The notes below the pieces were generated by a model. It did not search any database. It was given only the letters and a program-made list of their open reading frames with translations, and was not told the origin of the DNA. Positions 1-3,277 of a stretch of 64,000 bases of DNA are shown in pieces. Both the position numbers and the translations under genes were made by a program. The first letter of the stretch is position 1, and every line of letters starts with the position of its first letter. The DNA is taken from assembly GCA_013314775.1 (NCBI GenBank), contig JABUFB010000003.1, positions 1 to 64,000 of the forward strand, written 5' to 3'. The stretch comes from Armatimonadota bacterium. GTDB taxonomy: Bacteria > Armatimonadota > Zipacnadia > Zipacnadales > JABUFB01.

Positions 1-385
1 CAGCCGGAGCCGCGGGTGCTTCAGCCGGAGCGGCAGGTGCTTCAGCCGGAGCGGCGGGTGCTTCAGCCGGAGCCGCGGGTGCTTCAGCCGGGGCCGCGGG
101 TGCTTCTGCCGGAGCGGCGGGTGCTTCAGCCGGTGCCGCGGGTGCCTCTGCCGGAGCGGCCGGTGCTTCAGCCGGAGCGGCGGGTGCCTCTGCCGGAGCC
201 GCGGGTGCTTCAGCCGGTGCCGCAGCTGCTTCAGCCGGAGCGGCAGGTGCCTCTGCCGGAGCCGCGGGTGCTTCAGCCGGAGCGGCGGGTGCTTCAGCCG
301 GAGCGGCCGGTGCCTCTGCCGGAGCGGCCGGTGCTTCAGCCGGAGCGGCGGGTGCTTCAGCCGGAGCGGCGGGTGCTTCAGCCGG
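1..385. repeat. Tandem 21-bp coding repeat, at least 18 units
   Basis: A 21-bp unit repeats without indels from the window edge to about 385. Units differ at a few positions (for example GGAGCG, GGTGCC, GGGGCC), but read on the minus strand nearly all differences I checked are synonymous and keep AEAPAAP. One unit near 225-235 changes a Pro codon to Ala. Confidence 0.9.
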
Positions 386-892
386 AAGTTCACCGATCAC
401 GATGCGTTTGATAAAGGAGTCGGGAGTGAAGTCCTTCTGCGCGAGGGGGAAGGCGTGAACGCGCTTGGTCTGACGATTCTCCAGTTCCACGCTGGCGGTG
501 CTGCAGTGCAGGAGCCAGGTGGGTGTGCCTTCGATCTTGGATCCATCATTGCGCGTCACGGTGATGCGCTCAATGACCCATTTCGGCTGGTCCTCGGAGC
601 CCTGGTTCGCCCAGTCAGCATCCACGATTTTGATATCCCGGGCCGGGATGGTCACGTCACCCTCTGCTGTGGTCAGCCTGAGGGATCCGTACTCCTGGCG
701 CAGGGAGCCCACGCCCGAGCCCAGTACCACACCGAACTCGGCCAGCTTGATGACGCCCGTCAAAGTCTCGCCACTGCGCAGGACGACGGTGCCGCGGAAC
801 TCGCCCGCGACTTCCTGGGCGGCTGCGGGGAAGCATCCCCCGATCAGCAATGCCGCGGCCAGAAGAACCATTGTGCGTCTCGTCCGGTCCAT
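1..892 (-). CDS. Secreted protein with Ala-Pro-Glu heptad-repeat tail (3' end beyond window)
   Basis: An open frame runs from an ATG at 892 (preceded by AGAGGTG at good spacing) off the left edge. The first 30 residues are a signal peptide ending LLIGGCFPAAAQ, which could be cleaved after AAAQ or, less likely, lipidated at the Cys. Residues about 30-165 form a polar, beta-rich domain that I do not recognise. After IVIGEL the protein becomes a run of seven-residue units of the type AEAPAAP, 18 or more, with no break of frame up to the window edge. Such a tail is usually an extended linker or wall-spanning stalk, so a further domain may lie outside. No function can be assigned. Coding on this strand is supported by the way repeat variants differ almost only at synonymous positions. 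Confidence 0.8.
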   Translation of the reverse strand, partial: MDRTRRTMVLLAAALLIGGCFPAAAQEVAGEFRGTVVLRSGETLTGVIKLAEFGVVLGSGVGSLRQEYGSLRLTTAEGDVTIPARDIKIVDADWANQGSEDQPKWVIERITVTRNDGSKIEGTPTWLLHCSTASVELENRQTKRVHAFPLAQKDFTPDSFIKRIVIGELPAEAPAAPAEAPAAPAEAPAAPAEAPAAPAEAPAAPAEAPAAPAEAPAAPAEAAAAPAEAPAAPAEAPAAPAEAPAAPAEAPAAPAEAPAAPAEAPAAPAEAPAAPAEAPAAPAEAPAAPAEAPAAPA

Positions 893-975: not shown

Positions 976-1980
976 TCACTCGCGACTTCGGCGCGCCCGG
1001 GCTTCCAGCGTCTCCGCGAAAGCTTCCAGGCGCAACCGGTTCTGCGCATTCACCGGTCCCGGTCGGTCGCCCTCAATCTCAAGCACCGGTGCCTTCAGAT
1101 ACTGCTTCAGGAGCAGACCCTGAATCTGCCGGAAGCAGAAGGTCTGCGTGTAATGCACGATGCCGTCGATGTTGCGGCGGTCGATCTCCCGGTTGATGTC
1201 TTCGATTCGTCCAAAGACATCGTAGGGGTAGGTGTATCTCAAGTACTGCTCGATCAGGTCGCAGTTCTCGCACTGGCACATGGAGAACTGGCGCTGCATT
1301 TCATTGTAGACCACCTGCACGCCCAGGCCTTCCAGCACCTGATAGAAGTCCCCAATGATCGTCGGGACACCGATGACCCCGATACGCAGGCGGGACTTTG
1401 CGGGTGTTCTCCGGCGTGCTTCGCTGAGCAGGTTCGCCACCTGCGTGGCGAAGCCCTTCACGTCTGAGCAAAAATCCGTGGCGCTCACAAGGTAATAATG
1501 ATTCTCGAAACCCGACACCACACCCTCCTGCCAGGTGAGACGATCCAGCTCCGCGAGTTGCCGCCGCAGGGGCTCCAGTTCACGGCGCACTGTTTCGGCC
1601 TGCTCGAGGGTGGTGCCGAAATGCTCAGCCATCCGCGCCAACTGTCCGGCCAGCAGTTCCCGGTTGCGTTCCGAGGGGTACGCAAAGGGGTATACCTTCA
1701 CGCCGCGCACCCGGAGGGTCTCCATCATCGCGTGGGTCTGGCTGCAGTCGCCCTGAGTCACCGCGATGATCTCCTCCATGCCCCGGGCGAGCGTGGTGGC
1801 ATAGATGCCCTTGATCCAGGCGCATGTGTTGCGCGGGTAGCCTTCGCGCTCGGCCGACGCCACCAGGCCAGGGCTGTCGGGGTCGGAGATGAAGATGTTA
1901 TTGAGGTCCACCGGCACGATATTCGCGGCCAGAAGTATCTCCACCGGAATTGTTGTCGTGAACCCGACCACGCGCGGCAT
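976..1980 (-). CDS. 2-hydroxyacyl-CoA dehydratase family (HgdB-like) iron-sulfur protein
   Basis: This 334-residue protein resembles the D component of 2-hydroxyacyl-CoA dehydratases and the related double-cubane cluster proteins, which carry iron-sulfur clusters and do ATP-driven low-potential reductions. Seven cysteines are visible (53, 79, 171, 235, 237, 240, 282), including the CxCxxC group at 235-240 and the HYTQTFCFRQ stretch typical of the family. The start is the ATG whose A is the last base of the queE stop codon (TGATG), so translation is probably coupled to queE. A longer frame upstream is unlikely because it would read into queE. No partner subunit and no HgdC-type activator ATPase gene lies beside it, which is unusual. 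It may act on something other than an acyl-CoA; its link to queE is only by position. Confidence 0.75.
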   Translation of the reverse strand: MPRVVGFTTTIPVEILLAANIVPVDLNNIFISDPDSPGLVASAEREGYPRNTCAWIKGIYATTLARGMEEIIAVTQGDCSQTHAMMETLRVRGVKVYPFAYPSERNRELLAGQLARMAEHFGTTLEQAETVRRELEPLRRQLAELDRLTWQEGVVSGFENHYYLVSATDFCSDVKGFATQVANLLSEARRRTPAKSRLRIGVIGVPTIIGDFYQVLEGLGVQVVYNEMQRQFSMCQCENCDLIEQYLRYTYPYDVFGRIEDINREIDRRNIDGIVHYTQTFCFRQIQGLLLKQYLKAPVLEIEGDRPGPVNAQNRLRLEAFAETLEARARRSRE

Positions 1981-2732
1981 CAGCGAACTCCCATGACACG
2001 GTGGCACTGTGGGATGATGCGCACGTCCCGCAGGTGCTGCCGTGCGATCTCATACAGCCGGTGCAGCTTCGTTTCCGTGGGCGCACCATATTCCGCTGCC
2101 AACTGGGTAACGGGCTGGAGCACCAGTGGCGCGCTGATTTTCTTCTCTTTGAGCAAGGCCGCGGCGCGTTGCAGTTCCCGGTCAGGAGTGGACTCCAGGA
2201 CAACGGCTTTCACCGCGACGCACTTGTCGCCGGCGATCTGCGCACTGCGCACGAAAAGGTCCTCCGGCACAGGATGCCGCAGCGTGGAGGGGAGCTTGTA
2301 GTCCAGTGAGATGAAGTCCAGCTGGTCCACGACTTCCTGGAGCGCGTCCGGCAGGTGCCCCGCGGATTCCAGCCACACCTGCAGGCCTGCGGCGTGCAGT
2401 TCGCGGGCAAGCTCCGAGACGAACCGGGGGTACAGGAGGGGTTCTCCGCCGGTAATCGCCACGGAATGGGTGTGTTCCGCGGGCTTGGCGAGACGGCGCA
2501 CGTGAGCGGCGACCTGGCCTGCAGTTGTCGGACTGTCGATCTCCATCCACCCATCCAGGCCCGGCTCCGACTGGACGCGGCAGGTGCCCGCCAGTTCCCG
2601 CGCCGCCGGGGTATCGCAGTAGACGCAGGTCAGGTCGCAGCCTCGCAGGCGCACGAACACCTGGCGTACCCCAACCAGCGGGCCCTCTCCCTGAAAGGAG
2701 CTGAAGATCTCTGCCAGCGGTGCGCGGGTCAC
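1980..2732 (-). CDS. queE: 7-carboxy-7-deazaguanine synthase (radical SAM)
   Basis: QueE converts 6-carboxytetrahydropterin to 7-carboxy-7-deazaguanine in the preQ0/queuosine pathway, using S-adenosylmethionine and a 4Fe-4S cluster. The 250-residue protein has the family N-terminus with IFSSFQGEG and the cluster motif CDLTCVYC, with Cys32, Cys36 and Cys39 in the CX3CX2C spacing found in QueE and like enzymes. A GGEPLLYP motif for SAM binding follows. Its start overlaps the end of the DUF366 gene by 4 bp and its stop overlaps the HgdB-like start by 1 bp, so the three genes form one operon. QueC and QueD are not in this window. Confidence 0.88.
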   Translation of the reverse strand: MTRAPLAEIFSSFQGEGPLVGVRQVFVRLRGCDLTCVYCDTPAARELAGTCRVQSEPGLDGWMEIDSPTTAGQVAAHVRRLAKPAEHTHSVAITGGEPLLYPRFVSELARELHAAGLQVWLESAGHLPDALQEVVDQLDFISLDYKLPSTLRHPVPEDLFVRSAQIAGDKCVAVKAVVLESTPDRELQRAAALLKEKKISAPLVLQPVTQLAAEYGAPTETKLHRLYEIARQHLRDVRIIPQCHRVMGVR

Positions 2733-3277
2733 GGCACCGGCCTCACTTTGCAGCGGGCAGCGTCGATGGTTTCGAGTTCCCTCGCGAAAGCCGTCATCAA
2801 GCGCCGGGCGAACTGTTCCGGGTCAACACCCAGCTCGGCAAGACCCACCGCCGGAACAGGGGCGCCAGCGGGGTCGATATTGAGCGCGAAGTGGATCAGG
2901 CTGGAGACCGGAGAAACGGTTGCGATTGAGACCGACAGCTTGCGCTCGCCCACATACAGGTCGTCGCCCTCCCTGTGCAGCTTTTCGACGTGAGCCAACT
3001 GTTCGGCGGCGATAGCCACGAGAAGGCGCTGACGCAGGATGGCTTTGGGCAGGTCGGGGTCGAAGAACTCACACAGGAAGTGGAGCATCTCTCGAGCCTC
3101 AATGCCCACGCCGCGGGCTACGTCGGCCTTATCCACCATCTCCGATAGTTCGACGCGGCATGGCCCGCAGAATCCGACGCAGGCATCACCGCGCAGATCG
3201 AAAGTGTCCAGTATCCAGTGGGAGCGCAGCTCTCGACCTGTGTAAGCGACAGGGACGGTGGCGAAGTGGGTCTGCAT
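2729..3277 (-). CDS. DUF366 family protein
   Basis: This 182-residue protein matches my recollection of the DUF366 family (COG2029), best known from archaea: a WILDTFDLRGDA stretch near the N-terminus, a GPCRVELSEMVD segment and a conserved core KLSVSIATVSPVSSLIHF at about residues 113-130. The biochemical function of the family is not known to me. The gene opens the minus-strand operon with queE, overlapping it by 4 bp (ATGA), which suggests a role connected with the deazaguanine pathway or with the HgdB-like protein. Some cysteines (Cys35, Cys38) could bind metal. Family assignment rests on pattern memory, not a search. Confidence 0.6.
   Translation of the reverse strand: MQTHFATVPVAYTGRELRSHWILDTFDLRGDACVGFCGPCRVELSEMVDKADVARGVGIEAREMLHFLCEFFDPDLPKAILRQRLLVAIAAEQLAHVEKLHREGDDLYVGERKLSVSIATVSPVSSLIHFALNIDPAGAPVPAVGLAELGVDPEQFARRLMTAFARELETIDAARCKVRPVP

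Follow-up and report, generated by a model that had tools for sequence, protein, structure and literature searches.

Genes of a compact operon in an uncultured member of the Armatimonadota (order Zipacnadales) very probably include the enzyme that reduces preQ0 to preQ1 in many bacteria lacking QueF, namely an HgdB-like protein of the HGD-D superfamily, as judged from its genomic context and phyletic pattern. The wider interpretation, in which the whole operon serves de novo queuosine synthesis, with the HgdB-like protein as an activator-driven Fe-S replacement of QueF and DUF366 working with an FPDN-type QueC, is considered likely. The original prediction of a novel deazapurine-using reductase linked to queE finds strong support in gene context and in the mutual exclusion with QueF.

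The window (the 64,000 nucleotides analysed) is the beginning of one contig of a 6.1 Mb source genome. The operon lies on its minus strand and comprises (i) the DUF366 gene (2729..3277; 182 aa; PF04017, 204 bits against a cutoff of 29.9), (ii) queE, encoding a QueE-type radical SAM protein (7-carboxy-7-deazaguanine synthase; 1980..2732; 250 aa, GTG start; PF04055 and NCBIfam QueE models), and (iii) the HgdB-like gene for the proposed preQ0 reductase (976..1980; 334 aa, ATG at 1980 and stop at 976; PF06050). DUF366 and queE overlap by 4 bp (2729-2732), and queE and the HgdB-like gene by 1 bp (position 1980); the operon with these overlaps, as first proposed, is borne out by the minus-strand coordinates and by the conserved gene order, and co-translation of the three predicted genes is plausible. 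The queE product displays the C-x3-C-x2-C and FQGEGPxxG motifs, its best NCBIfam match, Bsubt_queE, scoring 66 bits against a model cutoff of 206 bits; both the motifs and the neighbours fit a QueE identity, with queD, queC and folE adjoining queE in relatives.

Within the taxonomic order, DUF366 is present in 37 of 41 genomes and the HgdB-like gene in 38 of 41 (profile built from 24 copies), and the order DUF366-queE-HgdB is seen in every sufficiently long context inspected, a recurrence far beyond chance. In the loci measured, the spacing ranges from -28 to +131 bp between DUF366 and queE and from -4 to +179 bp between queE and the HgdB-like gene, with gene calling in the loci of high-GC relatives guided by codon-position GC. 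Downstream of the operon, the product of a minus-strand gene (window 16-870) has a long terminal tail of Ala/Pro/Glu repeats (approximately 340 bp of DNA repeats); many genomes of the order encode a related secreted protein at this position, with tyrS next. Upstream of the DUF366 gene, three genomes of family f4 carry divergent TPP riboswitches above the Rfam gathering score (L007:3140-3243, L012:2537-2638 and L018:2181-2286). The search of viral contigs gave no relatives, and that of plasmids a single one, from Ilyobacter.

Apart from QueF, every gene of de novo queuosine synthesis that was searched for is present in the source genome (QueD, QueC, QueE, TGT, QueA and QueH), with queD and queC on contig C1 (locus L220), queA next to tgt on C18, and queH on C17; no match to PF14489, the QueF family, was found in this genome. 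The only Pfam match of the HgdB-like protein is HGD-D, not PF14489. A modified deazaguanine side branch, as had been suggested for the trio, is not what this inventory describes, only QueF being missing from it. The same pattern holds across the order, with QueF in 0 of 41 genomes and QueA in 36 of 41. Among 291 Armatimonadota genomes, the HgdB subfamily occurs in 57 and QueF (counted at E ≤ 1e-5) in 150, and none carries both. At the family level, the subfamily is found in 12 families and QueF in 17, with an overlap of 0 (Fisher p = 0.0013); the genome-level value (p = 7e-22) overstates the case because the HgdB subfamily and QueF are both clade-structured, and this partial clade structure of the co-occurrence pattern counts against the proposal. 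Outside the phylum, 50 subfamily genomes yield no QueF match over the cutoff and 42 of them encode QueC, so that QueF is found in 0 of the 107 HgdB-subfamily genomes overall (57 in the phylum and 50 elsewhere). The few weak QueF matches outside the phylum are frames of 191-197 aa that, judged from their length, look like FolE; folE adjoins queC in the loci read. This is the distribution predicted for a preQ0 reductase: the HgdB subfamily occurs where preQ0 and queuosine are made without QueF, and is absent where QueF is present.

Two observations from the census count against the proposal. QueF and the HgdB-like gene are both missing from sixteen Armatimonadota families, most of which keep QueA; in family f32 (G194-G201, e.g. 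loci L052 and L055), queE, DUF366, QueA and QueH are all present but QueF and the HgdB-like gene are missing, and these genomes must rely on salvage or on a third route. Bacteria commonly salvage preQ1 (PMC6593275, PMC11130926), and it could be that the organisms with the HgdB-like gene take up preQ1, the preQ0 made by QueD, QueE and QueC being used otherwise, with the HgdB-like protein acting on another deazapurine or donating electrons to QueE or QueC. This alternative is unlikely: the preQ0 genes are kept together with QueA in 36 of 41 genomes of the order, QueA requires preQ1 in tRNA, and the QueF-bearing family f35 has QueE and QueC without the HgdB protein, from which it follows that these two enzymes are independent of it.

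Replacement of QueF by the HgdB-like protein draws further support from gene neighbourhoods in other lineages, whose analysis had been proposed alongside the original prediction and links the subfamily to queD, queE and queC in several separate lineages. The nearest named relatives of the protein come from Armatimonadetes, Zipacnadia and WS1 metagenome genomes, and the best 80 relatives in a profile scan of GTDB species include Desulfuromonas, Geobacter, Geomonas, Sporomusa, Pelotomaculum, Desulforamulus and Ammonifex. Families f43-45 and f9 show the arrangement queD-queE-HgdB with no DUF366, and UBP13 (L198) that of queD-queC-DUF366-queE-HgdB-activase; the que-linked copies fall into separate clades of the protein tree (which does not include Ilyobacter). 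The strongest single context is the megaplasmid sequence of Ilyobacter polytropus (Fusobacteriota), where a single gene run comprises the HgdB-like gene, an acyl-CoA dehydratase activase, queD, queE, folE and queC, and where the HgdB-like protein, 41% identical to that of the window, shares with it the three cysteines and the signature motifs. The Rfam scans disclosed no preQ1 riboswitch at gathering score before the HgdB-like gene. The leader of the Ilyobacter run (L269:6862-6975) is strongly structured (z -4.3) with an intrinsic terminator at its end; a sub-threshold match to the PreQ1 riboswitch RF00522 in the same leader (12 bits, E 3.8) is not claimed.

On the other hand, in Bacillota and Desulfuromonadota the HgdB-like gene lies between housekeeping genes, away from que genes, which counts against QueF replacement. 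A consistent lack of que genes near the HgdB-like gene had been named in advance as evidence against a link, and these lineages bear it out in part, in genomes that nonetheless belong to a set with QueC (42/50) and without QueF (0/50). The unlinked copies, together with homology and fold, would also suit a 2-hydroxyacyl-CoA dehydratase or double-cubane reductase of the ordinary kind, placed beside que genes by chance. We regard such an accident as improbable, given que linkage that recurs across several distinct clades as well as in Ilyobacter, the absence of any coexistence with QueF in the 107 genomes, the presence of just three invariant cysteines and the lack of an adjoining second catalytic subunit.

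A different place in the pathway was also weighed, with the HgdB-like protein replacing QueG or QueH and deoxygenating the epoxide of epoxyqueuosine through reductive elimination, a reaction nearer to dehydratase chemistry. The family is known for reductive dehydration, and QueH was detected in 0 of 12 genomes tested from f43-45. However, all 30 subfamily genomes tested from the order, the class and f31 encode QueH, as do 12 of the 13 tested from other phyla, with QueF missing everywhere, and the genes linked to the HgdB-like gene are the preQ0-making queD, queE, queC and folE rather than queA or tgt. Because QueH coexists with the HgdB subfamily, the protein is not a QueG/QueH substitute in those genomes, for which this role is rejected; taken as a whole, it is very improbable.

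The proposed QueF replacement resembles Fe-S proteins of the HGD-D superfamily in profile and predicted fold. The protein matches PF06050 (HGD-D) with 136 bits against a cutoff of 28.4, and its AlphaFold2 model (pLDDT 93) displays the three-domain fold of the superfamily, with DCCP (6eno), HadBC (3o3m) and BzdO (8s02) as Foldseek matches (E 1e-14 to 1e-15). Three cysteines, and only these, are invariant in 28 of 28 sequences across phyla, and are candidate cluster ligands: Cys53 (codon 1822..1824, minus strand), Cys79 in the GDCS motif (1744..1746, minus strand) and Cys282 in the HYTQxFCFRQI motif (1135..1137, minus strand), the last two aligned to cysteines of DCCP. In BzdO, Cys95, Cys128 and Cys380 hold the catalytic [4Fe-4S] cluster with a water ligand, and a double cubane takes six cysteine thiolates as ligands (PMC11971306). 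Since the three invariant cysteines match the BzdO pattern and a double cubane needs six, we infer that the HgdB-like protein carries one [4Fe-4S] cluster, with a site left open. The assignment as a double-cubane protein, suggested at first, did not survive the comparison of ligands and is rejected: three and not six cysteines are conserved, and the NCBIfam double_cubane model NF040772 (cutoff 350) gives 52 bits for the window protein and 56 bits for the Ilyobacter homologue. Neither in the order nor in the other phyla inspected does a second HGD-D gene adjoin the HgdB-like gene.

The activator, which the HgdB-like protein had been thought to lack here, is in general not missing. Directly after the HgdB-like gene, 38 loci from other phyla carry a gene for an ASKHA, BadF/HgdC-type activase, as does the Ilyobacter run, and the source genome encodes an unlinked, stand-alone activase (G000:C8:228919-229683) resembling HAD activators, with no adjoining HGD-D gene by the searches made. 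The HgdB-like protein may pair with this unlinked activase; counting against such a partnership, the latter is closer to activators of 2-hydroxyisocaproyl-CoA dehydratase than to the DCCP activator. Among QueF-bearing control genomes, no activase match was found in G080, G045, G092, G164 and G218, and one was found in G184, G206, G207 and G208, so that this pattern in the controls is suggestive only. Separately, a 1403-aa reading frame with two activase-type domains (G000:C1:301736-303448) is present in the source genome and in most relatives examined.

DUF366 probably assists the step from CDG to preQ0 together with the FPDN-type QueC, a placement proposed because of its fold and its co-occurrence with that enzyme. 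The DUF366 protein matches the crystal structure 2ddz over its full length (E 5e-36), and a Foldseek search with its AlphaFold2 model (pLDDT 94.8) returns 2ddz first, followed by biotin protein ligases (E 1e-6 to 1e-7, TM 0.5-0.64) and LplA. The model thus assigns DUF366 a biotin/lipoate-ligase fold, which does not imply ligase activity. Lys113 (codon 2941-2939), in the motif RKLSVSIAT, is invariant in both alignments made. QueC occurs in two types, the canonical YPDC form and a divergent FPDN form that also lacks the His of YxQxHxxE; the source genome carries the latter (L220:7475-8152, contig C1), as do L274-L288 and L031. DUF366 lies in the same stretch in 24 of 45 FPDN-QueC loci versus 0 of 27 canonical loci, the counts not being independent as the loci come partly from the same genomes, and 12 Bacillota loci show the order queD-queC(FPDN)-DUF366-queE, with folE next in 10 of them. 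A 2026 study of QueC found Tyr131 of the YPDC motif essential, with Y131A inactive and Y131F partly active; its survey makes no mention of DUF366 or QueF (PMC13329287). We found no literature on DUF366 itself or COG2029. DUF366 as a substitute for QueF is rejected: the two coexist in family f35, and no DUF366 lies near the HgdB-like gene in f43-45 and in Ilyobacter. A phage-deposited record (L268, MW495066.1, Microcystis phage MaAM05) carries DUF366 among secDF, glyS, fliM and ompA-like genes and looks bacterial.

In the proposed mechanism, QueE would make CDG, which DUF366 and the divergent FPDN-type QueC would convert to preQ0. An ASKHA-type activase would then use ATP to push low-potential electrons singly onto one [4Fe-4S] cluster bound through Cys53, Cys79 and Cys282, whose open Fe site would pass four electrons and protons to the nitrile of preQ0. 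The HgdB-like protein, non-orthologous to QueF, would in this way turn the nitrile into the aminomethyl group of preQ1, to be inserted into tRNA by TGT, with QueA and QueH completing queuosine. Against this scheme, we know of no four-electron nitrile reduction in the HAD/BCR/DCCP family. That the operon unites two unrecognised solutions in queuosine synthesis, an activase-driven single-[4Fe-4S] HGD-D nitrile reductase and a two-protein preQ0 synthase formed by FPDN-type QueC and DUF366, is put forward tentatively, as a conjunction slightly less probable than its opposite.

To our knowledge, QueF is biology's only dedicated nitrile-to-amine reductase. It is also the sole preQ0 reductase recognised in published pathway reconstructions (PMC6593275, PMC11130926). 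No literature joining HGD-D proteins with queuosine was found. If the proposal holds, a second, unrelated Fe-S enzyme would explain queuosine in many anaerobes (Armatimonadota/WS1, Desulfotomaculales, Sporomusa, Geobacteraceae and Fusobacteriota), genome-based calls of salvage would be corrected, and the HAD/BCR/DCCP family would gain a nitrogenase-like substrate; a role of DUF366 beside FPDN-type QueC would provide a first function for the old crystal structure 2ddz.

Compared to known systems, DUF366 shares with biotin protein ligase and LplA the ligase fold and a conserved Lys in a comparable motif, but it co-occurs with FPDN-type QueC and not with biotin or lipoate enzymes. The HgdB-like protein would share with QueF (PF14489) the reaction and the place in the pathway, and in some genomes occupies a comparable operon position with queC, queD or queE; nevertheless, QueF is described as an NADPH enzyme forming a covalent thioimide on a Cys (PMC5372742), whereas the HgdB-like protein is unrelated in fold and cofactor, being of the HGD-D Fe-S type with an ATP-dependent activase. 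With the 2-hydroxyacyl-CoA dehydratases and class I benzoyl-CoA reductases (HadBC, 3o3m; BzdO, 8s02), it has in common the HGD-D fold, the three-cysteine [4Fe-4S] pattern with a free site and the activase partner; these are, however, heterodimers of CoA-ester catabolism, and the HgdB-like protein has one short subunit (334 aa) and is linked to queuosine genes, with 12-21% identity in the structural match. DCCP (6eno, 7yyl) is the nearest relative of solved structure, both by sequence (E 5e-6) and by fold, likewise of the single-subunit type with ATP-driven electron delivery, but its double cubane is held by six cysteine thiolates, in contrast to the three conserved cysteines of the HgdB-like protein.
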